Origin: Linnemannia hyalina
Lineage: Eukaryota > Mortierellomycota > Mortierellomycetes > Mortierellales > Mortierellaceae
Length of the DNA stretch: 64,000 nucleotides
NCBI GenBank assembly: GCA_019671135.1
Contig: JAHRHY010000001.1
Location: 1,922,001 to 1,986,000 of the forward strand
Direction: 5' to 3'
Position numbers and translations under genes: made by a program
Shown here: piece after piece, positions 4,963 to 51,950 of the stretch
Layout of the letters: each line of letters opens with the position of its first letter
Position numbering within the stretch: position 1 is the first letter of the stretch
The notes under the pieces: generated by a model
The model's database searches: none
Told to the model about the DNA's origin: nothing
The model's input: only the letters and a program-made list of their open reading frames with translations

Positions 4963-5103
4963 ACCACTTTTCTTTCCTTTATTTTATTTTTTTCGCCTCT
5001 TTCTTTCACTTGCTTCATTCATTTCTTTTTGTAACATAATAAAACTGTGCGGCATTCGCTTCTTTTTGCGAACTACGTCGAATACATCTACTCTACTACG
5101 CTA

Positions 5104-33434: not shown

Positions 33435-33507
33435 CGCCCAACGTGGGGGTCGAACCCACAGCCTTCAGATTAAGAGTCTGACGCTCTACCGATTGAGCTA
33501 GCCGGGC
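33435..33507 (-). tRNA. tRNA-Lys (CUU)
   Basis: 73 nt. Acceptor GCCCGGC pairs with GTTGGGC, allowing two G-U pairs; the discriminator is G. The D arm is GCTC/GAGC, the anticodon loop CTCTTAA with anticodon CTT at 33474-33472, and the T arm GTGGG-TTCGACC-CCCAC. No intron. It is identical to the copy at 49620-49692. A minus-strand TTTT follows closely as Pol III terminator. A retroelement nest begins 100 bp upstream of its 5' end. Confidence 0.97.
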
Positions 33508-33551
33508 TGATGTTACTTCATGTTTCTTGACATTTTTGATACCATGGTATG

Positions 33552-33575
33552 TCAGAAGCAGTCATATCACGTGCT
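33552..33575. promoter_or_regulatory. 24-bp block upstream of tRNA-Lys, copy 1
   Basis: Perfectly identical to 49738-49761 upstream of the other tRNA-Lys. It starts TCAGAAGCAGTC and ends ATCACGTGCT, so it contains the E-box core CACGTG. It starts 45 nt from the tRNA 5' end here and 46 nt at the other locus, while the intervening bases differ. It could be an upstream Pol III control element or a relic shared by both sites. Confidence 0.6.
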
Positions 33576-33593
33576 GCCGACGCCACCAATATC

Positions 33594-33607
33594 CACGCTC
33601 AAAAAAA
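33594..33607. repeat. Target-site duplication, left copy
   Basis: CACGCTCAAAAAAA, repeated exactly at 34770-34783 on the far side of non-LTR element copy 1. Confidence 0.9.
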
Positions 33608-34769
33608 CGGTCTTCCGGACCCCAATGTTTCCCTTTTACTTCCGGGCCACCGAGGCTCGACCTTGGCTTATGTCCACAACAGGCACGCAGTCTTCACCTT
33701 TTACAGCAACAGCAAGGACTCTCACCAACGCACACATCATATCAAAAAGCTGCATGGAATGCTGCCCACTCTGAACTCCATGCAGGCTCGCAAGCCCAAC
33801 CTGTACCCAACATGCGTGTGCCGACGATGCGAGCTCGAGAAGGAGGATACCGATCACGTCTGGAAATGCCCTTCGGCAGCTGAGACCACCACTGAGATCT
33901 GGAAGGAGGCCATGGGCAAGATTAATGAGTGGGGTGTGCAGGCGACAAACAGCTACAACGCAGCCAGGAAGCGAGAATACAAACGCGCGGTGGACAGAGG
34001 TCGTCAGGTACCGAGGCCAGTACCCATACACTGGTGGCCCCCTTCGGATGCGGATCATGTGCGAGGATTTTCCTCCATCGGTTGAGCTCGAGCCGTGCAC
34101 AGCGGTAGTCCAGCTCCCGATCGAGACGAGAAACCGATGTGGAATGTGTCGGATCTCCTCCGCGGCATCACCCCTTGAGCATGTTGACTGAATGGTCCGC
34201 GGTCTTCCGGACCCCAATGTCCATCGCCAAGACAGTCCTTCACAAGTTTGTTGGCTACCTGGAGGCGCAGGCCTCGGAGCTGATCTGGAAACCTCGGTGC
34301 TCCGCGACGATCGCGTGGGAACAAAGCCAGGGCATCTCTGCCAAGGACAAGACATCCAAGTACACAGGCCCCCGAGGTGACTGGAGTCAAGGATACGGTT
34401 ACATCACGCACGATGGTTTCTGTCCGTGTGGCGCTTCGCTAGCCACACATTGTGAAGGAAGGTGCCCTGGGGCGACCAAGGACCCACGCGCTGCTGACGA
34501 GCGGTTGTTGGAGAGTTTGTTAGGAAGGAGGAGGTTGTCAATGATGGAGAGGATGGGAAGAATCCCCTTCATTCGTATCTAGTTTTATTTTCTTCCGTTT
34601 AAGCTGTGAAGAGCAGCGACAATTGTTGCGCAGAGCCAGGTCCTGGACCGGACTGCGACTGGTGGATGGTGCACTGAAGAGTTTGGTCTGTAGTCCCCTT
34701 TTTACTTCCAAATGACTTCTCTATGCTGTTTGTCAGAGAAATAAAATTGTGTACGAAAAAAAAAAAAAA
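33608..34769 (+). mobile_element. Non-LTR retrotransposon copy 1, 5'-truncated
   Basis: Flanked by a perfect 14-bp target-site duplication and ending in poly(A) after ATAAAATTGTGTACG. From 33656 it matches copy 2 (offset 17165) with only about a dozen differences, so it is young. It carries the end of ORF2 with the Cys/His knuckle CVCRRCELEKEDTDHVWKC (stop at 34085) and a second frame, 34139-34582. The first 48 bp (33608-33655) are a patchwork: 33608-33628 repeats 34200-34220 of the same element, and 33629-33643 resembles its own 3' UTR near 34694. It sits upstream of, and points away from, the tRNA-Lys gene. Confidence 0.9.
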
Positions 34770-34783
34770 CACGCTCAAAAAAA
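34770..34783. repeat. Target-site duplication, right copy
   Basis: Exact repeat of 33594-33607, directly after the poly(A) of copy 1. A further ACACGCTC with flanking A-runs lies at 34795-34802, possibly an older duplication. Confidence 0.85.
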
Positions 34784-34806
34784 ATCAAAAAAAAACACGC
34801 TCGAAA

Positions 34807-35274
34807 AAGGCCTCGGAGGTAATCGCAAGCAGCTCTTGGAGAGTTTGTTAGGAAGGAGGTTATCAAGATTGGAGAGGAAGGGAGGAATCCCCGTTAATTT
34901 TATTTTGTCGTCCGTTTAAAACTGTGAAGGGCAGCGACAATTGTTGTGTAGAACCAGGTTCCGGGTCTGTAGCCCATTTACCTCCAATTTCCCTTTGTGC
35001 TGTTTGTGTCACAGTATCATAGTCTGTTGTGACCCTAGATCATTAGCATCATCTAACCACTGTCCCATCTAACCACATTATCACCTAATTACATCCCCAC
35101 CTAACCACATCGCCACCTAACTAATCACCACCATCCTGGAGCCCATAGCCTAGCACATATAAATACCCTGGCTCCCCTGTACAATAAACACCATCCGTTT
35201 CTGCCTCCTGCTCTTGTCTATTACCCTTCTTCTGTTACTATTACAGTTTGTCAGCGAAATAATATTACAAAAAA
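34807..35274 (+). mobile_element. Old relic of the same non-LTR family, split by a solo LTR
   Basis: From about 34832 the sequence follows the 3' end of copies 1 and 2 (GGAGAGTTTGTTAGGAAGGAGG, GGCAGCGACAATTGTTG and GTGCTGTTTG) with many substitutions and small gaps, so it is much older. It is broken at 35006 by a solo LTR and resumes at 35251 as TCAGCGAAATAATATTAC plus A-run, the diverged 3' terminus. It has no reading frame left. Same orientation as the young copies. Its own target duplication is not clear. Confidence 0.8.
35007..35245 (+). mobile_element. Solo LTR, 239 bp
   Basis: Begins TGTCACAG and ends CTATTACA (TG...CA), bounded by a perfect 5-bp duplication GTTTG at 35002-35006 and 35246-35250. 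Removing it and one GTTTG restores the relic non-LTR element, which proves the insertion. It contains a TATA-like CATATAAATA (35156-35165) followed by AATAAA (35183-35188), fitting U3/R, and several degenerate CACCTAACCAC-type repeats (35050-35130). No second LTR or internal region is present, so it arose by LTR-LTR recombination. Strand is assigned from TATA and AATAAA order; the superfamily is not determined. Confidence 0.88.
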
Positions 35275-35520
35275 GTCGATACTCACAAAAAACAATGAGA
35301 GAAAAGTAGGCATGTCGCTTTGCAAACATCGAAGGACGACACTGAAAAATCCAAAAGAGCACACATGGACACGTTGTGTATGCTATACATTGAATGTTTT
35401 ATTGTCTATGAACTCTATTGGGTTACGTTTGAACTGGTATCTGGTATATGGTTGAATGGCTGTTGATATCAAGAACGAGAAGAAAAAAGAAAGCAAGAAA
35501 GATGGCTGCGGAAAGCGACC

Positions 35521-37040
35521 TTAAGGCGAATCAGGGGCAACGTTGATCATGGAATGATGGATATGATCCTCAGATCCGGCAACCTTCAAAGTTTCGACCA
35601 ACCGCGACTTGTCCTGCTGAGCATCCTTCAACTCTGCAATCTTGACTGCACAGAAATCTTCATAGTCCACAAACAATGGCAATTCGGTGACGATAGGATC
35701 CAAGTTGACATCCATGAAATGAACGGTGAACCGGAGGATTTGAGAGATATCGAGCCAGGAGAGACCGCGGTCGGTGGGGATGAGCTGGAAGTTGTCGAGG
35801 TGGATGTCCATGTTGATGGGCTTGTCCCGTCCAAAGTCCATGTCGTTGTCGTCGTTCGAGATCTTCTTGTGGGCGGAGACTAGGCGGGAGGCGTTGACTG
35901 TGAATGGGACTCCTGGAAAATGACTAATGAGGTGGAGAAAGGAGAGAAAGAAGAGTTAGCGAAAATCAAGGGGAATAAAAAAAAAAGGATGCGATCCGGA
36001 AAAGGAAAAAGGTAGGTCGTCGGATCATGCCATGCAATGCGAGGTGATGTTGGAACAGATTGACTACTAAAGCCCCTTTCTTTGCAATCTCTCTTTCCAT
36101 ACACTTTCCCTCTCAAAGCCTCAAAGAGCCCTCGCCGTTCTTTTTTCCGGGGAATTCAATTCATATTTGTGTAGCCAGCTGACAACCAAAACGATAACTC
36201 AAAAAATCGAAAAAGAGAGGAACTTACGCATTCTCTACGGTGGGATGGGCTTGCTTGGTGATATAGTTAATCTCCTCAGTCTGGACAATCGCACAATCAA
36301 TCTCCTTGACCATGTACAACTTATCCCGCGCTTTCATCTCAACAGTGGCCCTCAGCTTATCCTGACCCATGCTAACACGAGAAGGAGCCGTCAACTTGCA
36401 CCGGAACTGCTTGGGCATATCCGTAGAAGCCGACAACATAGCAGTCGTCTCGGTGCGGGGCACAATCTGTCGACGGATGATGAGCTCGTGCTTGACGGTA
36501 CGGGTGGAAGATAACATATAGTCGCGCTTGAGGGTTGCGTGGATCTCGTACTTCCAGTCAATCTCGTGAGTGTCGAGGCGGTTGATCATGGTGGGGGGCA
36601 GGTCGCGGGCGCGAGGGAGGTCGATACGGAAGGGGATGCGCTGGGTGCCAGAGTGCTCAAATTCAATACGGCCCTTGCCGTTGGCGTCGTTAGCAGCGAC
36701 CAGGTCGGCGTGGGTTTCGATCAGACGTTCGTAGACGACGGGGGTCTTTGTGGAGTCGGGGAAAGCGAGACCGACTATTTTTATGATATGATCGAGAGAG
36801 ATAAAGTCAGAAAACAAAATCGGACATCAGGGGAGCAGGGGAGCAGGTGACGAAAAGGAAGTGATGGTTAATAAACATACCATGTCCATGAATGCCAACT
36901 GTGGCAACCTTGAAGTGCTCAGCGCGGTCCATCTGGATAACAATCGCTCCTTCGACGGTCTGGCTGAGGTGAGAATCGGCCTTGATGTCAATGATGAAGG
37001 GCTGCTCGGTATTGAGCTCAATGTCAAAAGTGAAACCCAT
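35521..37040 (-). CDS. Arrestin-fold protein, copy A
   Basis: Exons 37040-36881, 36774-36228 and 35923-35521 give 369 aa. The N-terminal half (FDIELNTEQPFIIDIKADS, VEGAIVIQMDRAEHFKV) fits an Arrestin_N beta-sandwich; the second half (FRCKLTAPSRVSMGQDKLRATVEM, PGVPFTVNASRLV, HLDNFQLIPTDRGLSWLDI) fits the C-domain. Such proteins act as cargo adaptors for ubiquitin ligases or as scaffolds in endocytosis. No PPxY motif is visible, unlike copy B. The ATG at 37040 is supported by immediate entry into the first beta strand. It lies in tandem with copy B, 1.04 kb apart. Confidence 0.8.
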
Positions 37041-38080
37041 GTTGTATATAATTCGGTGTGTGAGAGTGGTGTTGATGTTGGTTGCAAGAAAGAAAAGAAA
37101 AGAAAAGACTAGGAAGAAGAGCTGGTGTGAAGAAGTAGTGTTGAAGAGGTGGATTGATGAGAAAAAAAGAAAAGAAAATTGCAACCCGCCCCTTCCTTTT
37201 TATATTCGACACCGTGGAATTAACTTCGCCCGAAGATGTACGATGACAAGGATAGCATGCTGGGCGCACTGCGGCTCACTTCGTGGCAAACTCTTCTCTG
37301 GCGAAGACTCAAGGTTGCATTGTGTGAATGCCCTCAAATGAATACCAACAACAAATCAACCAGTCTAGCCTCCTCCTGTGCCCCCAGTGCGTCATGGTCA
37401 AGCACTCAAGCCTGTCTGACCACCCAACGTCCGTCTCTCTCCCTTTCTTTCTTCCTTTTGTTATTTTTGCATAGCCTATTGAGAGCATTTGACACCCCCT
37501 GTACAGTACTTTCTCCTTCAAAAGATTTCTTATTTTCAGAACAGATAAGTAGACTCAGCCCTTGGCGTGTGAGCAGCACAAGAGCTGCGGGTATTGTTTT
37601 TTACCAGGTCGACACACTGGACGCAGGCAATGAAAGGCAAAAAAAAGCAGGCAAACAAAAAGTCGACAAAAAAGGCGATGACGACCTTTCTCATCACACG
37701 ACACGATGAAAAAAAAACAGGAGGATACTATTTCCAAGGAGAATGAAGAAGGAAGTTTTTTTTACCATTGACAAGGATGGAGACTTTCTGGGTATGATTG
37801 ATCATTTCGTGTTCACTTTTATTTTGTGTTCTGGGTAATAACAATAACAACTTGCACCGCCCAACATCACAGGCACTCGTTCTTGACAATTTGGGAAAAC
37901 TCACATTCCGTGTTCGTTTATTAATACTGAAGGCAGTGTCCAATGGGGAGAGATACGACCGAGCACAGCTAGCATAGCAGTGGGAACAGCGCGAACATCA
38001 ACCATGACAGCTGGGTATTTTGGGTGAAGGAACTAAGACCGCTCAGCATCGGATGTACGCTGTGGGTGGAGAAGGTTTCA
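37041..38080. other. Intergenic between the two arrestin genes
   Basis: Purine-rich leader of copy A (37085-37180) and 3' flank of copy B. No coding, RNA or repeat feature recognised. Confidence 0.5.
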
Positions 38081-39477
38081 TCAGCATTGAGAATAAGGTA
38101 TGGGCTGCTTCTCGTCCTCGTAATCGTACATGGGCGGCATGTCATCGACAAGGTCAGGAACAAGTGGCACGCGCTCAGGATACAGTGCTCGATGGAGTTC
38201 GTTACGACTGACACGACTCGTGTTGGAGTCAAGGAGAACTGACTCTTCGTCCCCATAACCGGGGGGTTTGCTGCCATCGGGCTCTGCCTGCAGTGACCAG
38301 GGCTCGTCCAGGACATTGCCGACTTGAATGGGCGCCATGACCACCAGGTTCCGCACAGTCGAATCGGCAAACTCGATCGTGAAGCGAACACCGTGTGTGA
38401 TCTTGACCCAGTCGAGGGTCTCCGTCGCGACCAATTCGTTGGAGAGAATGTCCAGGTCCAGCTCAACAGGGTGCTCCCGCCCCCAGGCCGCCGAGAACTC
38501 TTCCTGGTCCGGATTTGTAAGTGTAACGGTATTGCTGAAGGTCTTGGCGGCATCCGATGAAATCATGGGATTCATGTCCTCCACAATGCCCGCAACACTA
38601 CAATTTCGGAGGGAACGGATGGAGTCAGCTTCTATTCGACGCTTTGCATTCCAATGACATATTACGCGTGAAAAAGACGATTGCCTTACCTCGCTGAGAC
38701 CCCTTCTGTTATGTTATTATTAGTCATTTGGATCTTTTCCTGCTGAATGGCCATGGCAACGATACTCTTGACCCTGCTTGCTGAATTGAGGGGATGCATA
38801 AAGACTCTGGCTGAGATCTTCGTGTCGGTGGTGCTCATGAATTTTGGCACTAACATCGAGCACTCGATTTCGTTGGGTCGCTTTGCCGAGTATCGTGCGT
38901 CGGAAAGATCGGATTGTGGGACGAGCAGTCGCTTGAACGTGATCGGTTGTCGAATGGTCTTACGGCGACCAAGCAGAGATGAGGGCACCGCCACCGTGAT
39001 GAGCTCGTAGCCCCAGATAAGGCTGAACGCCTTTAACAGTGAACAGTCTGTTGTCGAAATGTTTCCCGGGATAGATATCTGGAAGGGAATGGTGTAGTCC
39101 CCGGGTTGGTAGAGCGTCGCTGTTTTGATAGCCTGGACCTCAATGCGGTGGAGGGTGATAGGTTCGCTCTTGACTGTCCTCATGGTAGCCGATTCGAATG
39201 CTACGGGTTATACAGGTATAAGTTAGTACCGACTGAGTCAATTGAGATAACCACGTTGTCTTTCTCATGTGTTGGGCGGAGCAACAAATAAAGGCAAGAG
39301 GGTATGCACACCTTCTCCGACAAACGTGACAGAGAGTTGCTTGAGCTGGACAGCCTTTTGAACTTGCAGGCGAAGCGAGCCCGAGATATCATGGACAACC
39401 GTGGCACTTGCCGGTCCCAACAGCTCAATGACGTTGGGGACCTTTGTGTCCAGGCTTGTCTGCACCGTGAAACTCAT
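38081..39477 (-). CDS. Arrestin-fold protein, copy B, with PPxY motif
   Basis: Exons 39477-39312, 39200-38690 and 38597-38081 give 397 aa. The N-domain (VHDISGSLRLQVQKAVQLKQ, LSVTFVGEG, TIPFQISIPGNI) and C-domain (ISARVFMHPLNSASRVKSIV, LDLDILSNELVATETLDWVKI) parallel copy A. The C-terminal tail has DDMPPMYDYEDE, a PPxY site of the type used by alpha-arrestins to bind WW domains of Nedd4/Rsp5 ligases; that function is inferred. The exon 2/3 junction (GVSA-SVAGIVED) is the weakest point, since the bases before it (ACTAATAATAACATAACAG) look like intron end, so exon 2 could be shorter. Confidence 0.78.
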
Positions 39478-41161
39478 GATAATGGTCGTTCAAAACGGCT
39501 CAACGGCGGCGGAAAAGCGGGATAAGGGAAGGACAGTAGAAGAGATGAAAAAGATAAAGGGGTTCGTTCAATTCGCGTCGCCACACGTTTTCCTGTGCGA
39601 GTGTGTTGAAAAGAAGGCAAGTTGGAATGAGGAAGATAGATAAGGGGAAGTGTTGAGTGAATGAATGAGACCTGGGATGAGTGAAGGACGAGAGATGATG
39701 AGAGGGAGAAAAGAATGAGTGGGTGTAAAGAAGGAAAAGAAGTGAGTCTGGTGTCGGTGGGAAACGTGGTGCGTTTGGTTAATTGCTCACACGCACACCT
39801 TTTGTTGATTGTTTATTGCCTTTGCTATCTCTCCTCTTGTCATTCACCATTCGCCATTCGACGGCGAGAGTCGAGAGTTCTGTGCACCCACGCCCACGCA
39901 ACCTGTGCATGTTCCTCTCCGCAACAAAAGCAAAACGTAGCATCGTTTCCAAAAGAAGCGCGCCAAGAGTAGAGTCGACTAAATGCCTCTTTCTTTCTTC
40001 TTTTGTTCGTATCATTGCCCACGCAAGTGTCGATCGTTGCAAGTGTTCATGTCTGTCCTAGGTATCGTTCATCGTCAAGTAGAGAATGCATGGTTGCTAC
40101 AAGGACAGAAATATGAAGAATGATAACGAAAATGTTTATTATTTTTCCCATGTGTGTCTGTGTATCTGAATCTGCCATGGCTGCAACAACCGACCAGTCC
40201 AGACTGACTAGAAAAATCAGAACAACGTCAACGACAAAGAACATGATTCACCCGCTGCAGACAAGAGCACTTCCTCTTCCGATCGTCTGTTGTTGACTCT
40301 ATCAACATCCTCTTGTGCACCCAAGGGCTGTAGTCTTGACCTTTGATGATAAAGGCATCACTCCTACGGCCTTGGTGCTTGTATACATCCCTACACCGCT
40401 CTCTTATCCTTACACTCTCTCTCTGCCTTCTGTGCATACCCATCCTACATCCCAACCACCACCCATTATGAATATTGTTTAAGTAATAAGAGAAAAAGAA
40501 AAAAAAAAACTTTTTTGTAGATTCTTTGAAGCAGGAGACCACGTTCGCGAGTGAGCCCCGTTGAGTTACAATCATCCTCTTCATACAAAGAGGACAACCG
40601 CAATCGCATGACTGTAACCATGACGAACGCCAAACCACAAAAACGAGACCGTTGAGGAGCATTCATCCCTCTTGCGAGAGAATCTTCACCCAAAACATAA
40701 CAGATCCATCTTTTGTGGATTTGGACTTGACCAGTAATGAAATTATTGGCGACACTTTCTGTCAATTCGGGTCCGAGGACTTTCCCTAAAGCATTTCAAT
40801 TGTGTTTGGGTCGAGGTCTACAAGGAGTTCCCCTAGAGGAATCCAAGTAGCCAGTCGTCGTAGAAATGTGATGCTTCAATATGCGATTCTGCGTGTGGTG
40901 CTCCTGATCAAAGAATAAAAAAGTTGAAGGATCAAAAAACAGCGCCAGCGAAAACTTTTCATATAGAAAAAAAAATGAAAAGAAGGAATGGCGATTCACC
41001 GAACGGAATTAGATCGTAGGAGTTGCAACTCACACTTGTGTGCCAACAATCAACAACCATCGCGGAGATCAAACAGCAAAGCGACAGACAAGCATGGATC
41101 GATACATATGTATTACATATGGAAGTATGACTATCTACCGTCAAATACAAGAAGATCAGCT
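39478..41161. other. Intergenic, 1.7 kb
   Basis: Copy B leader, then AT-rich sequence with an A12 run near 40500. Two minus-strand open frames (40228-40662 and 40466-40765) have no recognisable motif or splice support. Nothing firm. Confidence 0.45.
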
Positions 41162-42191
41162 CTAGTGGCCACGACGCGTCCTTGCACTCCTCTTTCGCTT
41201 ATTATACTTTGCCTGAAAGGACGAGTCCGTTCCACCGGTAGCACTTCGCATATTGGCATCGACTTCTGCCTGGTTGGGTCCGTTGCTCTTTGCGTTGCCA
41301 AACTGATCGCCAGCGGCACGGTAGTACGACTGTCCAGGCATGTTGGCTAGTCGAAGAGGCGTGTTTGCAATCTCGGGAGGCAGCACTCCACCGGCACCAC
41401 CAGACTTGCCGACAATCTTTATATCCGCGCATCCCATGTAGAACTCTGCTTGTGTCGCCGCTGCATTGATCCAGCTCCAGCCTATTGATCAGTTGACAAC
41501 GGTTAGTTGATTGCTTAGTTTCTGGGCAGTGATATTGCGGTCGCATTTTATCACGTCAAAAAGTACAGAGAGAGAAAGTGGCGTTTTTTTTACCAAAAAT
41601 GCAGCTGTCGCAAGAAGGCAAGTTCTCAGGCAGCTTGACAGGCCAGTCGTAATACATATCCGGGCAGGAACCATGGTACCGTGCAAAGACACCAAACGTC
41701 TTTCCTTGGTCATAGCTCAAACTGAACTCGCACAGGCCGCCAGCATGGCGCGCCTGGTTGGATGAAGGTGTAAGTTGAGGTTGACCGTCGGAACCAAACT
41801 GAGCATTGCCGAAACGAACGTTGATGACCTGACCAGCATTGAAGGATTGGACCACTTGTTTGTCTGGTGGGTAGCCTCCACATGGAAACGTCTTGCCGAT
41901 GCCTCCGCCACAGCCGTCGTAGAGTGGTGCATCTCTGCAGTTGTAGTCAACAAAGCCACTAATGTACAATAGAATTCAGTCGTTAACAGCTTGCCTTGGC
42001 AGAAATATGTAGGCTGTCCTGGTTGAGAAAAGACATGATGTAAAGCCAGGTTATTACGTGTTGGGGTTGAAGGGGTGTCCTCTTGGCAATGGGTATATCA
42101 TGGAAATGTGGGCATCGGTGACGGTGACGCTCGTAAAGGCGAGCAGTATGCCTAGAAAGAGACGACACTTTTTGCTCAGTGAATGGTCCAT
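41162..42191 (-). CDS. Secreted LPMO-like protein (AA11-like), copy 1
   Basis: Exons 42191-42058, 41958-41594 and 41481-41162 give 272 aa. A signal peptide (RLFLGILLAFTSVTVTDA) would leave His as the mature first residue (HISMIYPLPRG), the first half of the copper histidine brace of lytic polysaccharide monooxygenases. The second His lies in ARHAGGLCEFSLSYD, like the HGGG-C motif of chitin-active AA11 enzymes. Other shared motifs are TFPCGGY and SCPDMYYDWPV. The C-terminus is basic (KYNKRKRSARTRRGH). Introns are phase 2 and 1 and close cleanly. Family assignment is by motif; the substrate (chitin or similar) is inferred. A paralogue lies at 53028-53783. Confidence 0.82.
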
Positions 42192-43541
42192 TGCTATGTG
42201 TTGTTCCTGTTGTTTGATGCCGACGATAGATCAAGAGTGTTGTCGATACGAGTGTGATGACAGAAGAAGAAAAAGAAAAAGACAAAAGTGAGGGCGAAAG
42301 GTATGCAGTGATGAGGAAAGGAAGAGTGAAGATGCAAAAGGAGGACGATGGCTTCAGCAATTGTATTTTTATCCGTAGGAAAAAGGCCCAATTCCGTTTC
42401 AACAGCTCTTTCTTTCTTTGCATTCGAATATCCTTCATCATCCATCTTGACTTTGCTAAGCTAATGGTGATGGTCGGTTCAAAATCGATTGATTGCGATG
42501 CCCATCCCCAACCGCCCTGGCTACTCTCACCTTCATGGTTCTGGGAATATCCTGCCCTTTTTTATATACTGATAATAACTCGTACCGTATGGATTACGGT
42601 TTGCCGTGTCTATCTTTACTTCTTTCTTGCAAGGCGTTTAATGTTTTGCCGCTCCTAGGCCGCTCTTTCTTTCATCGAGTTTAATTGGCCCTCGGGTAAC
42701 GTGCGAGTGGTGAAGCTGCGATCTTGTGATGTGAACTCTTGCAACAGGCTCTTCCTTACTACGCGTTCTGATCAATAGTCATTTCACCCCAACATCTTCA
42801 AATCAAAAAGTCGAATAGGAGTTGTACCAATTGTGAAAGGGCTAGTCTCCACCTCTTCTCTCCCCTTTAGCTACTCTTTCAAAGGGGTGTCCGTTGATTT
42901 CATATCTTCTTGCTACCAAGCGAGCAAACAAGAACCGCATGCAGTCCTTGTTCTCTGATTACGGAGCGGGGCATAAAAAACCCCGACATCATACATCATA
43001 CATCACGCATGAGGCTGTAATGTCTTGGCTGTCGCTCTCATGCGCAAAAAAAAGTGTGTCTAAAAACAAAGACAGGTTGTCTCATCCGCAATGTGTGTTG
43101 AATGAACAAAGGGAAGGCGAAGACTCGAGCAATTGAATCAATCAGAAAAAAAGCCAACAACAGCACCAGATAGCTACACCCTCTGACGTTTGAATGCCAA
43201 GCAGCAGCCATACACACGTGCCGCGGCACAGTACATGTCCTTACTCCACCTCTCTCTCCATTGCCCCCCTGTTGTTTGTGGAATGTGATGAAGCGAACGT
43301 TCCTACTGTGTGACCAAAGTAATTTTTTCTTGTCTCCACCTCAATTCATTTTAGGAGGTATTTATGCATCGGTTATACTTTATTATTTCTGTGGGGTTGG
43401 GAGAAAAGGGGTAGGATAGAGTAAGAGTAAGAGAGGAAGGAAGAGTGTGTACAAAGGTTGAAAAAGGGGAGTAATGAAAGGGATTAAAAGTGGTAGGATA
43501 CAACAAAACTTGAAGAAAGAAGAGAAAAAAGGCCTTTGACT
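42192..43541. other. Intergenic, 1.35 kb
   Basis: LPMO copy 1 promoter and the 3' flank of the TLC gene. An ACGCGT hexamer near 42760 and short A/T runs are seen; no gene recognised. Confidence 0.45.
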
Positions 43542-44339
43542 CTACTCGGACTTCTTGACGACCTGTTTCGTAAAGTAAAAGGAGTTGACGGAACGGAGCC
43601 ACTGCTTGGCGAGGATGAGCCACCAGACGACGTTCATGAAGAACATGGTGGTGGTGGTAATGGTGAACTTTTTGCCGATGTGGAAAGGTGCTTCGTACCA
43701 GGTCATACCGAGCTTGGTGCCAATGGCGACGCCCATCCACCAGTTACCAAAGATCCTGCACCAGAAGTAGGTGACCATCAAGGCAGTGTCGATGAAGCGC
43801 TTGAGTCTCGAGTTGACGAATGTCCTGCCATTGCTCTGGAGAACCCAACGGAAGTGCAAGATGGGTGTGCTCATGTTCATGAGCGACAACATTCCGATAA
43901 AGTAAGGACCGGGATTGTTGATGGTGAGTGCATAGAGGTAGTAGGCGGATCCAAGGATGACGGAGACGTGGTGAAAGAGAATCAAGTTGCTACCGACGCC
44001 GAACTTTGCGCGCTGGTAGAACTCAAAGGCCGTATCCTGGGTGAGGTATCCGAGCTCGAGTCCGACGAGGAAGGGCGTAAGAGCGGTCTTGTAGGTTGAG
44101 ATATCGTTCTTGGACCAGTCAACGGTGAAGAGGAGGTAGAGCCCTGTGCAGGTCATGATGGTCGAGTGGACCGAGGCGACAATCTTGTTGCAGAGATGGT
44201 ACTGCTTCTGGGTGTCTGCCTTGGGCGGGAGGATGTTCTTGACAGCCTGCATCCGTCCGAGCGTTGTGAACAGGAATGGGTAGAAGGTGAGAGCCCCGAT
44301 CAGCGATGGAGGGATGTGTGGTGAGTTGAGGATGTCCAT
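43542..44339 (-). CDS. TLC-domain (TRAM-LAG1-CLN8) membrane protein
   Basis: A single exon of 265 aa. Several hydrophobic helices cover most of the protein (PSLIGALTFYPFLF, STIMTCTGLYLLF, SAYYLYALTI, FIDTALMVTYFWCRI, MFFMNVVWWLILA). The segment LILFHHVSVILGSAYYLY, with a His pair in a helix, and the downstream LHFRWVL, fit the TLC fold. The fold is shared by ceramide synthases and TMEM56/TLCD-type lipid regulators; the ceramide-synthase Lag motif is not evident, so a TLCD-like lipid role is more likely. The basic KKSE tail could be an ER-retention type signal. It is transcribed away from RPB9. Confidence 0.8.
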   Translation of the reverse strand: MDILNSPHIPPSLIGALTFYPFLFTTLGRMQAVKNILPPKADTQKQYHLCNKIVASVHSTIMTCTGLYLLFTVDWSKNDISTYKTALTPFLVGLELGYLTQDTAFEFYQRAKFGVGSNLILFHHVSVILGSAYYLYALTINNPGPYFIGMLSLMNMSTPILHFRWVLQSNGRTFVNSRLKRFIDTALMVTYFWCRIFGNWWMGVAIGTKLGMTWYEAPFHIGKKFTITTTTMFFMNVVWWLILAKQWLRSVNSFYFTKQVVKKSE

Positions 44340-45195
44340 GGTGCACTTGTCAGGCGGTCTGAAGTATGTGAGAGTCCGTCGTCTGTCTGTAATCTGTTCG
44401 GGTATGTTTCTTGGTCTTGAGGATGAGTTGGGTGGAGTTGTGAGAAGAAGGGAGGAAGGGATGAGAAAAAGGAAAAGGAAAGAGGAAGAAAAGAAACGAG
44501 ATGATGAAGGGCAGACAAAAAGGGAAGATAAAAGCGTTCAAAGAGGGAAGACAGTTGGGGTTGGGTCGACTGGAGCGACTCAGGCGTGTTTATGTATGTC
44601 CAAAAGGACAGAAACGCAACAACGGGCTGAACCTTGTCTCATTCTCTTTCAGTGGGACAAAAAAAAAGATTACTAAATAGAATCGCTCCCCATACCACCA
44701 TCTGTCAGCACACCCATCGGTCTCCCTTCTTGTTTCTTTCTTTTTTTATGTTGCTTCTCTTGTGGTTTTAACGCAATTAATTTGGAGCTTGTAACCGTCG
44801 CTATTCTGGGTGTCCAACTGTGGATTGAGATCGAACAAGCTCAACACACATCCCGTCAGGCAAGCAGGGTGACCAATTATTCGCCTAATAGAGAACCTTG
44901 AGCAACCGGCACAAAGATCATCCAGTCGAGCGGGAACCCCGCTGTAGTCTACTAATGCCATGTCCGTCGTTATCAACGATAATCATGAATACACGCCTTG
45001 TATCCTCAGTTGGCACAAGGACATCTACTTCTGCCTTCGCCCTTTTTCCAATCAAATTAAAAACAAGGTGACGTCGACATTGCCACTGATTTTTTAGTTA
45101 TTTCTTCCCACTCGTTGCTACTTTTTCTTCTTTTCCACCATCATTCGCTCAGTCCTGCTACCATCCGCCTCAGGACTCAACCAGACTCTCTTACA
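44340..45195. promoter_or_regulatory. Divergent promoter region TLC gene / RPB9
   Basis: Purine-rich leader of the TLC gene (44430-44530), then AT-rich and finally C/T-rich sequence before the RPB9 ATG. No further gene recognised. Confidence 0.45.
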
Positions 45196-46095
45196 ATGCC
45201 TTCTTTCCTTTACTGCTCAGAATGGTAAAGTAAAGCGTCGACATCAGGACAGAATGATAGGCGGCAGGAGGATTGCTCATGGTCCAGGAAGGAGCATTAA
45301 CGCAAACGCAGATCCCATCACAAGAGGCGATCGCGCTTTGGCCGGCGCATGAGAAAAAAAAGGCCCCCTTCGTCTTTTCTGACACGCCCACTTTCTTTTC
45401 TCTTCTCTTCTTTTATCCTCTGTGCCTTCTTACAGCAACAACTTGTTGTACCCACGAGAAGACCGGTCGAACCCTGATGTTCGAGGACGGAGCTTGATGT
45501 TCGCCTGCCGGAATTGTGATTACCAGGAGAAGGCTGACAACCAGTGTGTCTACAGAAACGAAATCGTCCATGCACCAGCGTATGTGTTGGACTGAAAGCA
45601 ACAAAAAAGATAATGATGAGGTAACTGGATAACCAGGAGGAAGACAACACGAGTACTCATACAACTTATAACTTGTGCTCGTTTCGACCTTTTAGCGAAC
45701 AAACTCTTCTTGTCCAGGACTTGAGCACGGATCCGACTTTGGTATGTGGAACTGCCTTTTTCATGGCTGCGCCGAATCATAGGTGCAGGCACTGAAGCAA
45801 GGCATGAACAAGCCAGAGAGTATCACTATACTAACTGCTATTTACCGTTTTCTTCACACTCACACGAACAACACCGCACCTGGACTACTCAACAACTACC
45901 TTGGATTCAATCTGGAACCTCGTTTACTATTCATCGGGATGGCCTTGATAACAGCCAAGAACAAGGATGAGATGCAGCAAGTGCGGACACGAGGAGGCAG
46001 TTTTCTTCCAAGCGCAAGGAAACAGCGCAGAGACAAAAATGACCTTGTACTACATCTGTTGCAACAAGGCGTGCGGTCATCGCTGGTTCTCATAA
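45196..46095 (+). CDS. RPB9: RNA polymerase II subunit RPB9
   Basis: Exons 45196-45224, 45436-45579, 45696-45741 and 45955-46095 give 119 aa. Rpb9 has two zinc ribbons and supports transcript cleavage and fidelity. The first ribbon reads [15 protein letters not shown] and [14 protein letters not shown]; the linker is [18 protein letters not shown]; the C-terminal ribbon is [13 protein letters not shown] and [13 protein letters not shown]. All four exons are short, so the gene has no single long open frame, but each junction falls exactly at a conserved position. Compared with known Rpb9, about five residues (NPDVRG region) are added between RS and SLMFACR; the DNA there has TGATGTTCG twice, 20 bp apart, suggesting a local duplication. 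Confidence 0.93.
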
Positions 46096-46460
46096 CCGCG
46101 CTCTGTCCAAGGCGAGGATGATCCTGCCGTACTCAACCTACACACCCGACTTCACACTCGCAACTCGCCATCGACCAATATCTTCAGCAGAAAAGGAAGA
46201 AACAACAAAAACCTAGTAGTAACCACCAAAAAAGAAAGCATGGATGGCGAACACTTTGGATGGAGGCGTTGCGAGTAGACAGTTTGTTCAAGCGGATGCG
46301 TTTCAGAGTTCGAAATAATAAAAAACACATCAAGGAACAACACTTTCAAGAATGGCACTAGGCTATTAAATGAAACGTGTGATTTATTCCATGAACGAGG
46401 TACAGGATACAAAGGAGGCAAGACAAAAAGACAAAGGATGTAGCGTTCAACTGGATGAGA
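46096..46460. other. Convergent gap RPB9 / stomatin-like gene
   Basis: Shared 3'-flanking sequence, AT-rich, with a T/A run near 46315. Nothing else seen. Confidence 0.5.
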
Positions 46461-48212
46461 CTATTTCTGATGAGCGGCTTGGTCAATAGAGACACCACGC
46501 TTCTTGGTAATACCGTCATAGATGGTAAGCGCCTAGCAGTGACGAGAGAAAGGAAAAAGAGAGATTGTCAGCACATTGTCGTCGAGGATAACACCAGTCA
46601 GTGGGACAACAGTACTCAGGCTCAAAGGCGTGGGTGCATTACCTGAGCAACCATGGAGGAGGCATCACTGGCAGGAGCTGGCAGGATCAAGGTAGTGCTC
46701 TCCTTGGCGAGCTTGGAGAAGGCATCGACATACTTGTCAGCAACCGTCAACGAGACCGCATGGTGTCCACCCTCACTGTTAGTGATGGCCTCGGCAATAC
46801 GACAGATGCCCTCGGCGTTTGCTTTGGCGCGGAGGAGAATTGCCTCTGCTTCGCCGGTGGCTTGGTTGATCTGCTCAGCCTTGTTGGCCTCTGATTGCAG
46901 GATCACGGATTGCTTCAGACCTTCTGCAACGTTGATTGCTGCTTGACGCGAACCTATTTTTTTTGGAGCGAGGGGTGAGTCGAGCATTAGATTATTAGCA
47001 TGCCAGGTCAGGGTTCACCACAGGTCGCATAAAATCAAACAAATATGTAAACGCGAGCGAGGGATGGAGATGGTTTACCTTCAGAGTCCAAGATCTGAGC
47101 ACGCTTGGTACGTTCAGCAGAGACCTGCTGGTGCATACTCTCAACGACCTTAGCAGGAGGGTGGATATCACGGATCTCATAACGCAAACAGCGGATCCCC
47201 CAATCTGCCGCGGCGCCATTAATAGCCTCGACAATGTTGGAGTTCAGGTGGGCACGTTCGGCAAGGGTGCGGTCAAGGGTCATGAGACCGATCTCGGCAC
47301 GCATGGTTGTTTGAGCCAGTTGGGAGACTGAGAATTCTGCGTCCTCGACGCCGTAGGAGGCCTTGTAGGGGTCTACAACGCGGAGGTAGAGCACTCCGTC
47401 CAAGTCCAGTGTCACATTGTCTATTTTATGTTCACCATGTTGAAGGACTAGAAATATTAGCGGGAGTAACCCACAGAGCGCGACAGAATCAAGGCTGAAA
47501 ATGTGTGACGAAACAAAAAATAATGATGTGAAGAAGACGGCATGGTAGAAACTCCTTGTTCTCATACCTTGAGTGATGGCACGCTGGCTAGGGATTTCAA
47601 TGGCAACCTCCTTGAGACTCTTGACATACTTGACCTGATCAATAATAGGCATCAAGACTTGCAGACCTGGTTCCAGAGCCCGATGGAATCGACCCATCCG
47701 CTCAACAATCCATGCTTCTTGCTGAGGAACAAACTTGATCACCTATTTTTTTTTATGGGCAAGTAGGAGTCAATGCATGAAAGAAGATTAGTGGGCGTGT
47801 CGCAGTGGACGGAAGAAAAAAGGTTTATTTCCACGCGTGTGGGTTACCATTCTCCAAGAAGAAAGGAATCAAAAAAATATACCGTGTTCATGGGCAGGGA
47901 TTGTCTTTTTCCACTGTTGTTGCTGTTGAACGATCGGCGGATCATGCGCGCAGAGCCAACCGCGGGGACCTAGGAATCGGCGAGGGAGGAGGGATGCGTA
48001 GATGATGAGTACGCGAAGTGTGTATAAAAGCATGCGCTTTTTTTTTCTGTTGACGTTGGTCGTTGGATTGAAAGCTGGTAGCGAGCATGACAGCAATAAA
48101 AGTCTGAGGGTTTTTTTATGTTGCTTACCATGCGAGTGGTTCTGGCCAGGAGGGGTGAGGCGGTGGCAGCTGAGGTGAGTTGGGGAAACTTGGTGACAGT
48201 AGCGCGAAGCAT
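46461..48212 (-). CDS. Mitochondrial stomatin-like protein 2
   Basis: Exons 48212-48129, 47742-47568, 47420-47079, 46953-46643 and 46532-46461 give 327 aa. Exon 1 encodes a mitochondrial presequence (MLRATVTKFPQLTSAATASPLLARTTRM). The SPFH/band-7 domain follows (VIKFVPQQEAWIVERMGRFH, LKEVAIEIPSQRAIT, DNVTLDLDGVLYLRVVDPYKASYGV, LAQTTMRAEIGLMTLDRTL), then the coiled-coil region with AEGLKQSVILQSEANKAEQI and the STOML2-type C-terminus SKLAKESTTLILPAP. It organises cardiolipin-rich inner-membrane domains in animals and fungi. Every splice is in a conserved segment. There is an A/G-rich leader (48240-48370). Confidence 0.93.
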
Positions 48213-48988
48213 TTTAGTTTTTGTTGAATGAGTTATGATAGACAGAGAATGAGAGAGTGTGAGAGTGTGAGAGAGAGGGTAAGTAAGAGAAGGAAAGAGA
48301 AAGAGAGGAGATTGTTTGCTATGAAAAAAGAGAAAGAGCTATAGAGATGAGAAAAAGAGAAAACACGAATGGGGTAGAAGGTCTCGCGCCTTAAATACAA
48401 ACTGCTTATCAGGTAGGCAGCCTTGATTCTTCACACAGAAAGCAAAAAAAGGAAATTTTCGCGTTTGGGCTGAGTCGATTTTATGGCATGCTTGCTCTTC
48501 GATGGTGGAGGGCGTACACAAACGGGAAGACACACACAAATGACGAACTTGCTCTTACAATCATACCATGACTTGACTGAAAAAGAGCATTTTCTCTTCT
48601 CTTCTCTTCTCCATTGCACTTTGTTCGGGTCGGTCAGAAAACAATTAACGGAGGTAACAGGAACAGGCAACGTTACGATTAAGTCAATTCTCAATTGCCT
48701 TTTCACGCGAAAGCTATCATTTGGTAAGTAATAATATCCCATTGTTGCAGACCGAAAACAAGTATAACATTACTCTACGCTAGAAGAACAAAAGGGCTTT
48801 CATACCTTGGGTCTGAGAGCAGGTCGGCGAGATGCATGCCCAGAGAGGGGAGGGCATTGTAGCCTTCTACGAACCCTCTGTCGCTGTTCGCTGAACCCCC
48901 CACTTGCTCAGGTATGTCGCAAACATTGCTATTGAAGGGGAGGGGGAACGTCTTCCCTCTCCGACCAGGCATGTCTCTTTGAAGGTAA
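48213..48988. other. Intergenic upstream of the stomatin-like gene
   Basis: Begins with a purine-rich (GAGA-type) leader at 48240-48370; the rest shows no gene. The boundary with the transposase-like relic at 48989 is approximate. Confidence 0.45.
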
Positions 48989-49276
48989 GCGACTGAGAGT
49001 CAGTCGCTTCTCGTTGAATGCACCAACTCCGAATGCGAGGCCTTCAAGTTCGGATACTCAATTCGTGGACGGGACTCTAACGCCGCTGTGGCAATTGTCA
49101 TTGCCGGATACTCGAACCTCAAGTCGGACAAACACCGCAAGTCTGACAAGCGCAAGATACTCCATCCATTCGCCTCATGGTTGCAACTACCAGTTACCAC
49201 CAACAACTTGGATCCTGCTATAATTCCGAAGGCATCAGTCCTGATCCGAAGGACCTCATCAGTGACCAGATATTGA
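48989..49276 (+). pseudogene. Possible Fanzor/TnpB-like nuclease relic (C-terminal fragment)
   Basis: Open frame of about 95 codons without a start. It reads LVECTNSECEAFKFG, then SIRGRDSNAAVAIVIAGYSN, then a basic stretch and LHPFASWLQLPVTT. The CX4C half-ribbon followed by RDxNAAxxI is the arrangement of the zinc ribbon and third RuvC motif in TnpB-type and eukaryotic Fanzor nucleases. Only the tail remains; upstream in frame is a TAA, and no ends or inverted repeats were found. Recognition is by eye, so a chance likeness or another transposase family is possible. Confidence 0.4.
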
Positions 49277-49619
49277 AGGGTTCTTGTATTGTTTATTTGT
49301 AGTGTTAGCATGAATGTTTGTTTTTTATTCTCATGCTAACACAACTTCTGCACGTCTTTATTTGAAAGGCTCTATCCTTGTTCCTCCACTCCAGACCAAT
49401 ATCAGGCCCCACATCTCGATGTGAAACTGCAATGGAAAATCTCCTTCTTTGTACCTGTATCGTATTTCTTACTTGACAGACCAGCAGCATTCACTCCTCT
49501 CTCGCCAAGACGTTGATGAAAAATAATAATAAAGAAAACCGCAAAGAAAGCCTTGTCAAGCACAATACCATAAAAAAACAAACTTGGAGGGAGCAAAAAG
49601 AAGATGCTTCGTATGAAAG

Positions 49620-49692
49620 CGCCCAACGTGGGGGTCGAACCCACAGCCTTCAGATTAAGAGTCTGACGCTCTACCGATTGAGCTAGCCGGGC
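49620..49692 (-). tRNA. tRNA-Lys (CUU), second copy
   Basis: Identical 73-nt sequence and cloverleaf to 33435-33507, anticodon CTT. A minus-strand TTTTT terminator lies about 18 nt downstream. Upstream (rightward) are the same 24-bp block and another nest of the same retroelement family. Confidence 0.97.
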
Positions 49693-49737
49693 AGATATTT
49701 ACTGAGATTTTAAAAACTATTTTAGTGACATAACAAC

Positions 49738-49761
49738 TCAGAAGCAGTCATATCACGTGCT
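49738..49761. promoter_or_regulatory. 24-bp block upstream of tRNA-Lys, copy 2
   Basis: Identical to 33552-33575. A second, palindromic site ATCACGTGAT follows at 49783-49792, so this locus has two CACGTG cores within 50 bp. Confidence 0.6.
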
Positions 49762-49809
49762 CTCAGTCACCTTTGCTAATTAATCACGTGATAAATTGCG
49801 CCAACGGCG

Positions 49810-49845
<36 letters not shown>

Positions 49846-49850
49846 CTTCT

Positions 49851-49884
49851 ACAGAGAAATAAAATTGTGTACAAAAAAAAAAAA
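49851..49884 (+). mobile_element. Minimal (about 22 nt) non-LTR insertion with poly(A)
   Basis: 49851-49872 equals the last 20-22 bases of copies 1 and 2 (GAGAAATAAAATTGTGTAC), followed by A12. It lies between GCC-T31-CTT (49812-49848) and GCC-T10-CTT (49885-49900), which read as a target-site duplication whose T-run has changed length. It is therefore an independent, extremely 5'-truncated insertion rather than a piece of copy 2. Confidence 0.75.
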
Positions 49885-49905
49885 GCCTTTTTTTTTTCTT
49901 TTCCT

Positions 49906-49918
49906 TGGCGATCCAAGG
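49906..49918. repeat. Target-site duplication, left copy
   Basis: TGGCGATCCAAGG, repeated exactly at 51938-51950. The target also holds a short inverted repeat CCTTGG-CGAT-CCAAGG (49903-49918). Confidence 0.92.
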
Positions 49919-51250
49919 AGACTGCAGCAGAAAAAGGAAAAGGAAGCACTCCGTCAACAACACCGCTTGGTCGTCGCTCGCCTAAAAGAGATCCTATCCA
50001 GCCTCAAGGAAACGAAACCACGATACAGACCAGCCTTTGACACAGATGCTAGCTTTCCTTTGCAAGAACGCCATCAAGTCCAACCACCGCCTGTACCAGG
50101 ACCCCCGACCACACAGATCGGCCCCCTTTGCCTGTCTCCAGGAGAGGCGGCGTCAATGCGCGTAGTTCAGGACACACACGTCGACAACTCTACCCCTCGC
50201 GTCCTGTACTCTGACGGATCTCTTCTGAACTCGGGAACGCTAGAAGTATCCCAGGCCTTTGGAGTGGTGGATCTCACTCAGGACAACCCTCTGACAGTAC
50301 AAGGACGAACGGACGGTCACGCATCCTCGGCTAAGGCCGAGCTCATGGGCTTATTAGCCGCAGTCTTGTCAGCACCACCGGAACAGGACATTGTGGTCAA
50401 GCTGGACAATCAGTCAGTGGTGGAACAGTATAGTCGCCTGGTGAAGAATCGTCGGGACACCTTACCGAGGAAGCGATTCAGGAGTACATATGCGGGTATC
50501 TGGGCGGTGCTTTGGCAGGCTGTGGAATCTCGGCCAGGCAGGGTCGAAGTGGTGTGGATCAAAGGTCACAGCAACATCCACGGAAACGAACTTGCGGATC
50601 AGGCGGCGAAGGTGGCAGCACAGAGTGGTTCAGTGCCCTGGATGGTGGATCTCACTCAACAGACGGATATCACGACCTTTGCACATTGTTACGGCGGGAT
50701 TGTTGAAATCGATCTACGTCAGCTCCTCAAACAACAATCGACAATCCGTCACCATCAGGCCTGGACGTCACAGAGGCGGGTCAAGAGGGCGATCCCTGAC
50801 ATCGATGACGTGGAATGGAACTCGACCTTGGCTTATGTCCACGACAGGCACGCAGTCTTCACCTTTTACAGCAACAGCAAGGACTCTCACCAACGCACAC
50901 ATCATATCAAAAAGCTGCATGGAATGCTGCCCACTCTGAACTCCATGCAGGCTCGCAAGCCCAACCTGTACCCAACATGCGTGTGCCGACGATGCGAGCT
51001 CGAGAAGGAGGATAACAATCACGTCTGGAAATGCCCTTCGGCAGCTGAGACCACCACTGAGATCTGGAAGGAGGCCATGGGCAAGATTAATGAGTGGGGT
51101 GTGCAGGCGACAAACAGCTACAACGCAGCCAGGAAGCGGGAATACAAACGCGCGGTGGACAGAGGTCGTCAGGTACCGAGGCCAGTACCCATACACTGGT
51201 GGCCCCCTTCGGATGCGGATCATGTGCGAGGATTTTCCTCCATCGGTTGA
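49919..51250 (+). pseudogene. ORF2 3' fragment: RNase HI domain and zinc knuckle
   Basis: Uninterrupted frame of about 443 codons with no start of its own. The RNase HI core is complete: YSDGS, AKAELMGL, VKLDNQSVVEQY and GHSNIHGNELADQAAK, which supply the D-E-D-D catalytic set. A Cys/His motif CVCRRCELEKEDNNHVWKC lies about 150 residues later, as in many non-LTR ORF2 proteins. The open frame also runs upstream through poly-T and A-rich flanking DNA to 49796, but that part is not element sequence. The frame ends at TGA 51248-51250, present in both copies. Confidence 0.85.
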
Positions 51251-51303
51251 GCTCGAGCCGTGCACAGCGGTAGTCCAGCTCCCGATCGAGACGAGAAACC
51301 GAT

Positions 51304-51747
51304 GTGGAATGTGTCGGATCTCCTCCGCGGCATCACCCCTTGAGCATGTTGACTGAATGGTCCGCGGTCTTCCGGACCCCAATGTCCATCGCCAAGACAG
51401 TCCTTCACAAGTTTGTTGGCTACCTGGAGGCGCAGGCCTCGGAGCTGATCTGGAAACCTCGGTGCTCCGCGACGATCGCGTGGGAACAAAGCCAGGGCAT
51501 CTCTGCCAAGGACAAGACATCCAAATACACAGGCCCCCGAGGTGACTGGAGTCAAGGATACGGTTACATCACGCACGATGGTTTCTGTCCGTGTGGCGCT
51601 TCGCTAGCCACACATGATGAAGGAAGGTGCCCTGGAGCGACCAAGGACCCACGCGCTGCTGACGAGCGGTTGTTGGAGAGTTTGTTAGGAAGGAGGAGGT
51701 TGTCAATGATGGAGAGGATGGGAAGAATCCCCTTCATTCGTATCTAG
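51304..51747 (+). CDS. Retroelement downstream frame (147 codons)
   Basis: Intact in both copies (34139-34582 and here). The useful part starts LSMLTEWSAVFRTPMSIAK and contains a second Cys/His cluster (CPCGASLATHDEGRC), ending MERMGRIPFIRI. The ORF2 frame just before it, past its TGA, reads KPMWNVSDLLRGITP and joins LSMLTEW only after a -1 shift at a CCCC run (51350s). So this may be the real ORF2 C-terminus, separated by a stop and a frameshift, or a third ORF. Confidence 0.5.
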   Translation: MECVGSPPRHHPLSMLTEWSAVFRTPMSIAKTVLHKFVGYLEAQASELIWKPRCSATIAWEQSQGISAKDKTSKYTGPRGDWSQGYGYITHDGFCPCGASLATHDEGRCPGATKDPRAADERLLESLLGRRRLSMMERMGRIPFIRI

Positions 51748-51937
51748 TTTTATTTTCTTCCGTTTAAGCTGTGAAGAGCAGCGACAATTGTTGCGCAGAG
51801 CCAGGTTCTGGACCGGACTGCGACTGGCGGATGGTGCACTGAAGAGTTTGGTCTGTAGTCCCCTTTTACTTCCAAATAACTTCTCTATGCTGTTTGTTAG
51901 AGAAATAAAATTGTGTACGAAAAAAAAAAAAAAAAAA

Positions 51938-51950
51938 TGGCGATCCAAGG
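51938..51950. repeat. Target-site duplication, right copy
   Basis: Exact repeat of 49906-49918 directly after the poly(A) of copy 2. Confidence 0.92.

Follow-up and report, generated by a model that had tools for sequence, protein, structure and literature searches.

A LINE of the fungus Linnemannia hyalina with copies stacked upstream of tRNA genes of many isotypes

LINE copies beside two tRNA-Lys genes

In a 64-kb stretch of the genome of the fungus Linnemannia hyalina (hereafter the window; contig C1:1922001–1986000 of a 51.5-Mb assembly in 50 contigs), we characterised copies of one long interspersed nuclear element (LINE), a retrotransposon without long terminal repeats (LTRs), and their position relative to tRNA genes. 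According to ARAGORN, the window contains two tRNA genes, each of them a tRNA-Lys(CTT) gene on the minus strand (33434–33507 and 49619–49692). A preliminary description of the window had reported four insertions of one LINE family upstream of these two genes, with the 5′ ends toward the tRNA, and this was borne out by BLAST, which placed all copies on the plus strand. Its label of RNase-H LINE was likewise right, as was its mention of an early-diverging fungus (Mortierellaceae): an RNase H domain (PF00075, E = 4.5e−11, Pfam) was identified in the copy at L026 (loci are designated L, contigs C).

The copy beside the first tRNA-Lys gene (33608–34769, plus strand, 98% identity, including its poly(A)) is 5′-truncated, starts 101 bp from the 5′ end of the tRNA and is flanked by a perfect 14-bp target-site duplication (33594–33607 and 34770–34783). 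Its first 21 bp (33608–33628) come from another part of the same element, giving a template-switch-like 5′ junction, with the main aligned part beginning at 33656. Farther out, second in the stack, lies an older LINE relic (34828–34964, plus strand, 77–78% identity). The spacer between tRNA and LINE contains the motifs CACGTG (33568–33573, strand not applicable) and GCCACCAA (33582–33589, plus strand).

Upstream of the second tRNA-Lys gene, past two CACGTG motifs in the spacer (49754–49759 and 49785–49790), an extremely truncated copy consists of the LINE 3′ end and poly(A) only (49852–49884, plus strand) and is flanked by a perfect, T-rich 13-bp duplication (49812–49824 and 49885–49897). It is followed by a 5′-truncated 2-kb copy (49919–51937, plus strand), which starts 227 bp from the tRNA-Lys 5′ end, comprises the 3′ part of open reading frame 2 (ORF2), the 3′ untranslated region (UTR) and poly(A), and includes an RNase H-coding stretch at ~50200–50630 (by reading); a perfect 13-bp duplication surrounds it (49906–49918 and 51938–51950). 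The perfect duplications of 13–14 bp described previously are therefore present, but they number three (14, 13 and 13 bp) rather than two. That the 64 kb hold no further copy also stood, except for simple-sequence matches of 30–38 bp near 20.4, 57.9 and 59.6 kb (BLAST).

Position of the element relative to tRNA genes across the genome

A search of the genome with the LINE 3′ end (window 51251–51920) yielded 58 matches, 40 of them of nearly full query length. The best 40 of 266 candidate places were scored, and these copies represent 36 loci, two in the window and 34 elsewhere. In 32 of the 36 loci, a tRNA gene was detected on the 5′ side of the LINE and on the opposite strand (ARAGORN): at both window loci, directly at 28 of the 34 others, and at L022 (tRNA-Trp) and L027 (tRNA-Arg(ACG)) after the stretch had been lengthened. 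These genes cover 15 isotypes and 23 anticodons (Lys, Arg, Gly, His, Thr, Val, Ala, Asp, Ile, Ser, Trp, Asn, Leu, Met and Phe), so the target is tRNA genes generally; the proposal of tRNA-Lys targeting stands as to tRNA genes, but its restriction to tRNA-Lys is ruled out by the 15 isotypes.

The nearest LINE 5′ junction lay 97–165 bp upstream of the mature tRNA start in 31 of the 36 loci. For 30 of these, the distance was obtained by BLAST (mean 136.8, standard deviation 17.3) and was taken to the first LINE piece other than poly(A) or homopolymer, BLAST matches to poly(A) only being dropped. At the tRNA-Trp locus, alignment of the truncated ORF1 with longer homologues placed the LINE ~115 bp away, and at the tRNA-Arg(ACG) locus an LTR retroelement with 99.9% identical LTRs lies between tRNA and LINE. 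Upstream zones of 90–250 bp would make up less than 0.2% of the genome even assuming 600 tRNAs, and chance clustering, offered as the alternative in the preliminary description, fails before a pattern that elsewhere in the genome far exceeds chance.

It is scarcely credible that segmental duplication or gene conversion dispersed a single ancestral unit of tRNA gene plus LINE. A few loci are indeed related: L019, L023 and L039 belong together, and spacers are 94% identical between L030 and L033 and between L052 and L062. The 32 tRNA genes, however, carry 23 anticodons, similar pairs among 52 spacers number only 13, with four of those loci sharing an LTR, and neither truncation points nor target-site duplications agree from locus to locus, L030 and L033 included. 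The unrelated spacers rule out segmental duplication for most loci. The two outcomes that had been named beforehand as speaking against targeting, most copies lying far from tRNA genes and the loci being one segmental duplication, were thus not found for the examined copies, the latter in view of the 23 anticodons, the mostly unrelated spacers and the differing truncation points.

The association was also assessed in the reverse direction, from tRNA gene to element. An Rfam tRNA search was scored for 63 of 1,552 candidates, from which 15 tRNAs were sampled irrespective of the element and ~630 bp upstream of each was read; the 15 form the second part of a list of 35 that was chosen by hand and omitted tRNAs already examined, four on C34, divergent pairs and several cluster members. 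LINE sequence was present within ~630 bp upstream of 12 of the 15, with an independent count nearer 11 of 14 because the L052 and L062 spacers are 94% identical. Ten pieces in the same orientation started 114–222 bp away and an eleventh, 26 bp long, at 241 bp, while no LINE sequence was found in the ~630 bp upstream at L048, L057 and L061. By comparison, when ~350 bp upstream of five other matches (four to 5S, one to U6) was examined, no LINE sequence was found (0 of 5 vs 12 of 15, p = 0.004 by Fisher test), in a small sample in which some 5S matches may be pseudogenes. The excess at 80–250 bp upstream of tRNA genes for which the preliminary description had asked was, in this sample of the genome, seen in both directions (31 of 36 loci and 11 of 15 sampled tRNAs).

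Of the loci in which no tRNA was detected, L019, L023 and L039 (on C44, C42 and C29) are copies of one duplicated block, ~99.5% identical and 2.9 kb or more in length, that holds a single LINE copy; the stretches read there contain no tRNA. The other, at C17:731597 (L035/L045/L047), has no tRNA in ~9 kb and is adjoined by a Ty3/gypsy-like ORF (by reading) and by the non-coding B element described below. Rfam gave no match at gathering level for the six loci without a tRNA at first look, and a permissive search of five loci returned only the known L043 tRNA and sub-threshold matches to miRNA models in L019.

Insertion signatures, stacks and the setting of the distance

The point of 5′ truncation varies from copy to copy, and the 3′ end carries poly(A). 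Target-site duplications of 9–16 bp flank 18 of 34 proximal copies, whereas with the same 9-bp minimum only 6 of 1122 mismatched cross-locus pairings gave one, and 8 of 30 proximal copies start with a 21–31-bp piece from another part of the element. At L029, the LINE copy splits an LTR whose unsplit form is preserved in L043, and the 12-bp duplication there provides an empty-site comparison. Within stacks, 72 of 73 copies are oriented away from the tRNA, or 68 of 69 after subtraction of two B-element pieces and two copies counted twice (L024 has two same-facing tRNAs); this count omits pieces shorter than 60 bp and those short of the 3′ part, among which some short ones are reversed (L024, L051 and L054). 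The nearest copy was more identical to the reference than the next one in 15 of 18 stacks (p = 0.008), where neither the B element (two stacks) nor the copy of a neighbouring tRNA (one stack) was used as comparator. Such an order is expected if new copies enter at the same distance and displace older ones outward.

Several structures in or near the insertion zone were recorded in addition. Long A or T tracts occur there at L009, L012, L017, L031, L033, L041, L051 and L054, and in the window at ~49815–49845. At L051 and L054, a reversed 21–31-bp match to the LINE 3′ end with poly(A) possibly represents a tail-only insertion. In L024, a LINE 3′ fragment of 68% identity (7606–7743) lies directly downstream of tRNA-Phe, between two convergent tRNA-Phe genes, and is maybe an old or differently aimed relative. 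In L027, 104 bp from the 5′ region of tRNA-Arg recur in inverted form behind a LINE 3′ end (7499–7602, compared with L043 1924–2027), joined to apparent LINE endonuclease coding sequence (by reading).

We consider it highly probable that this LINE, which encodes an APE endonuclease and RNase H, inserts by target-primed reverse transcription in a narrow zone in front of tRNA genes of many isotypes (~97–165 bp upstream, mean 137). The sequences show that sites are chosen by position relative to tRNA genes; tethering to the machinery bound to those genes is what we infer from this. The ORF1 and/or ORF2 protein would be held by a complex on the tRNA gene, most likely the RNA polymerase III (Pol III) initiation complex (TFIIIC/TFIIIB), and the endonuclease would nick at a set distance from the tRNA and not at a fixed sequence. 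The sequences also show that nearly all copies have the 5′ end toward the tRNA and the direction of transcription outward, and that one zone has been used over and over, which stacks copies outward and usually leaves the least diverged nearest the tRNA.

Several observations weigh against this reading. Four of the 36 loci have no tRNA, so that other insertions evidently also survive, and the 40 examined places among the 266 candidates are the best query matches. Distances in the unselected sample are wider, at 114–241 bp plus a reversed piece at 305 bp (L056), and the spread is not simply one of age, because old copies can be close (114 bp at L049 and 125 bp at L054, 86–87% identity) and young ones more distant (191 bp at L051 and 202 bp at L053, 97–98% identity). 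In 16 of the 34 proximal copies there is no target-site duplication of at least 9 bp, and in 3 of the 18 stacks (L010, L014 and L024) it is the more diverged copy that is nearest. Contact with TFIIIB/TFIIIC in L. hyalina is putative, being taken over from the dictyostelid element TRE5-A, whose ORF1 protein contacts TFIIIB according to the available part of a review (PMC5911963).

Broad insertion without active targeting, followed by survival only in harmless DNA beside tRNA genes, seems very improbable to us. Some copies do lie away from tRNAs, and short spacers could be tolerant of insertion; however, survival alone does not predict that copies keep to one side of the tRNA, share an orientation (68 of 69), fall in a zone of 97–165 bp, occupy 12 of 15 sampled tRNAs and form stacks with the least diverged copy usually nearest.

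The nature of the ruler is a separate matter. Motifs were counted in 45 spacers, 7 redundant or LTR ones having been dropped from 52: GCCACCAA was present in 15 of the 45 and CACGTG in 17, each being found in less than 1% of 2000 background 110-bp pieces of the window. CACGTG and CGCCACCAA motifs recur upstream of tRNA genes (e.g. window 33568–33589) and are perhaps a host tRNA promoter element; for CACGTG this is probable because it also occurs at tRNAs without LINE (L048 and L061). A fixed spacing between CACGTG and GCCACCAA was not found, the interval being 14–15 bp in three spacers and taking other values elsewhere. These motifs raise the possibility that the targeting is real but that its ruler is an upstream feature (a factor on CACGTG / CGCCACCAA, a positioned nucleosome or poly(dA:dT)) and not the core Pol III complex, which we regard as unlikely yet worth serious attention. 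Besides the enrichment of both motifs, the position of GCCACCAA correlates with the start of the main LINE part in the 15 spacers with the exact motif (Spearman 0.65, p = 0.008), many LINE junctions adjoin A or T tracts, and the LINE zone is well beyond the 40–54 bp given for TRE5 in the part of the review available (PMC5911963). The correlation is not robust, however, falling to 0.43 (p = 0.11) when measured to the first LINE piece, and to 0.30 without the sampled locus L051; it was sought post hoc and is partly forced, because motifs past the junction go uncounted. Moreover, 30 of the 45 spacers are without an exact GCCACCAA, and at L010, L014, L029 and L037 the first ~100 bp are LTR sequence with neither motif, yet the distance is kept (125–143 bp).

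The element, its passenger and known systems

The element is an APE-type LINE with RNase H. Its copy on C4 (~9.3 kb, adjoining tRNA-Trp) is 5′-truncated within ORF1; the end of ORF1 and the start of ORF2 overlap in TAATG, and ORF2 is open for 2,468 codons and followed by a 190-bp 3′ UTR. Pfam identified APE endonuclease (PF03372, E = 2e−14) and reverse transcriptase (RT; PF00078, E = 2e−16) domains in this copy. Together with 5′ truncation, poly(A) and target-site duplications, the presence of APE and RT in ORF2 marks the element as an APE-type LINE. The truncated ORF1 of the C4 copy had no Pfam match; an RRM (PF00076) was found in three of five ORF1 relatives scanned, and the ORF1 alignment shows a conserved CCHC knuckle (by eye). 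In L026, the ORF at 2932–8562 (minus strand) is an ORF2 in which reading revealed a long stretch rich in serine and a repeat of 18 aa (54 bp), and this type of repeat was also seen as repeated BLAST matches at the 5′ edge of copies.

The nearest solved structures by sequence were those of LINE-1 ORF2p (PDB). Among the nearest RT relatives, an ENA record matched at 74% (73% of the query covered), Linnemannia elongata at 70% (one third covered), a JGI record at 54% across the entire query and Entomortierella parvispora at 44%, with Rhizophagus farther away; among viral contigs searched for relatives of the element, none was found. An RT tree of 37 rows united the family with Entomortierella in a set of ten at 100/100 support and split 31 Mortierellaceae/Rhizophagus rows from six L1-like rows at 99/100, a split to be read with a long-branch warning. 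By its RT in this tree, the family belongs to a LINE lineage of Mortierellaceae and Rhizophagus. Many LINEs of this lineage in Rhizophagus irregularis, R. clarus and Mortierellaceae combine the APE, RT and RNase H domains in a single long protein.

A second, non-coding element (the B element) measures ~1,070 bp with its poly(A), has a duplication of 13 bp and has in common with the LINE only its last ~195 bp (75%), which correspond to the LINE 3′ UTR. It gave 21 matches, at least five of them at 100% identity over all 880 bases searched, with copies at L015 (~3975–5045), L035 (967–1802), L010 (5174–5521), C47:1669571–1670450 and C50:675496–676353. Those at L010 and L015 lie within stacks, and the C47 and C50 copies (the latter 84% identical) lie ~175 bp upstream of tRNAs at C47:1670629 and C50:676532. 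On the simplest reading, it would be a SINE-like (short interspersed nuclear element-like) passenger moved by LINE proteins and carried by them to tRNA sites in trans. The finding of the B element upstream of tRNAs, although it shares only the 3′ UTR, points to the LINE proteins as the source of the targeting, acting in trans.

An LTR of ~730 bp also neighbours tRNA genes (L043 2053–2781, L027 2766–3497, L010, L014, L029 and L037, and C22:1023–1571). Upstream of tRNA-Gly, -Ala, -Leu and -Thr genes it starts after a spacer of 8–21 bp; at tRNA-Arg the upstream distance is ~100 bp, and at a 5S gene (C22:898–1016) it is 6 bp. It looks like part of a Pol III-targeted LTR retrotransposon. The sequence directly upstream of the tRNA-Gly, -Ala, -Leu and -Thr genes was considered as part of the LINE and rejected, being this LTR.

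In the part of the review available (PMC5911963), tRNA-targeted non-LTR elements are reported from dictyostelids only, the fungal entries of its table being LTR elements, and no tRNA-targeted non-LTR element of a fungus was found among the top matches in the open-licence literature, where an earlier record could be missed. We infer that targeting in L. hyalina arose independently of the TRE and NLTR elements; this rests on host, distance and domain make-up, the RT tree having covered Mortierellaceae, Rhizophagus and L1-like rows. With a fungus as host and a new distance, the case would show that a further branch of eukaryotes has LINEs that reached tRNA genes. It also offers a natural setting in which to learn what steers an APE-type LINE to a place that has no fixed target sequence. 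Insertion order can be read from position in the stacks, and the passenger, which shares only the 3′ UTR, allows targeting in trans to be told apart from any contribution of the RNA. A broader reading joins an independently evolved fungal LINE targeting, a ruler formed by a host factor on CACGTG / CGCCACCAA and not by TFIIIB, a SINE-like passenger moved in trans, stacks at most tRNA genes as a layered record of activity, and targeting that may span the Mortierellaceae/Rhizophagus lineage. Taken whole, this combination strikes us as rather doubtful, the more so because the motif–distance correlation fails under one of two measures.

Among fungal elements, Ty1, Ty3 and other LTR elements differ in using integrase and not target-primed reverse transcription. 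Zorro1–3 of Candida albicans and Ylli of Yarrowia are, like the L. hyalina LINE, fungal non-LTR retrotransposons (PMC7175516, PMC5014426); in the available parts of these sources, Zorro1/2 are subtelomeric and Zorro3 lies at poly(A) sites, with no tRNA preference reported (PMC7175516), and none is mentioned for Ylli (PMC5014426). A tRNA-targeted class is delimited, in the accessible portion of another paper (PMC5006619), by several copies at a similar distance from tRNAs, and the L. hyalina LINE lies at 97–165 bp in 31 of 36 loci and upstream of 12 of 15 sampled tRNAs.

The review excerpt (PMC5911963) places TRE5 40–54 bp upstream and TRE3 40–150 bp downstream of tRNAs, and NLTR-A and NLTR-B 2–6 and 39–64 bp upstream. 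As described there, TRE5 resembles the L. hyalina LINE in being an APE non-LTR element with an oligo(A) tail that lies upstream of tRNAs and is transcribed in the opposite direction. It differs in its closer zone (40–54 bp, against 97–165 bp with a mean of 137), in an ORF2 listed with APE, RT and a zinc finger but without RNase H, which the L. hyalina LINE has, in its amoebozoan host, and in also entering extrachromosomal 5S genes, compared with LINE sequence in 0 of 4 upstream stretches of 5S matches in our small sample. Compared by description and not by sequence, NLTR-A of Dictyostelium purpureum and NLTR-B of Polysphondylium pallidum are tRNA-targeted and combine APE, RT and RNase H in the sections available (PMC5911963, PMC5006619), as does the L. 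hyalina LINE, but differ from it in their zones, which lie only 2–6 and 39–64 bp upstream of the tRNA.

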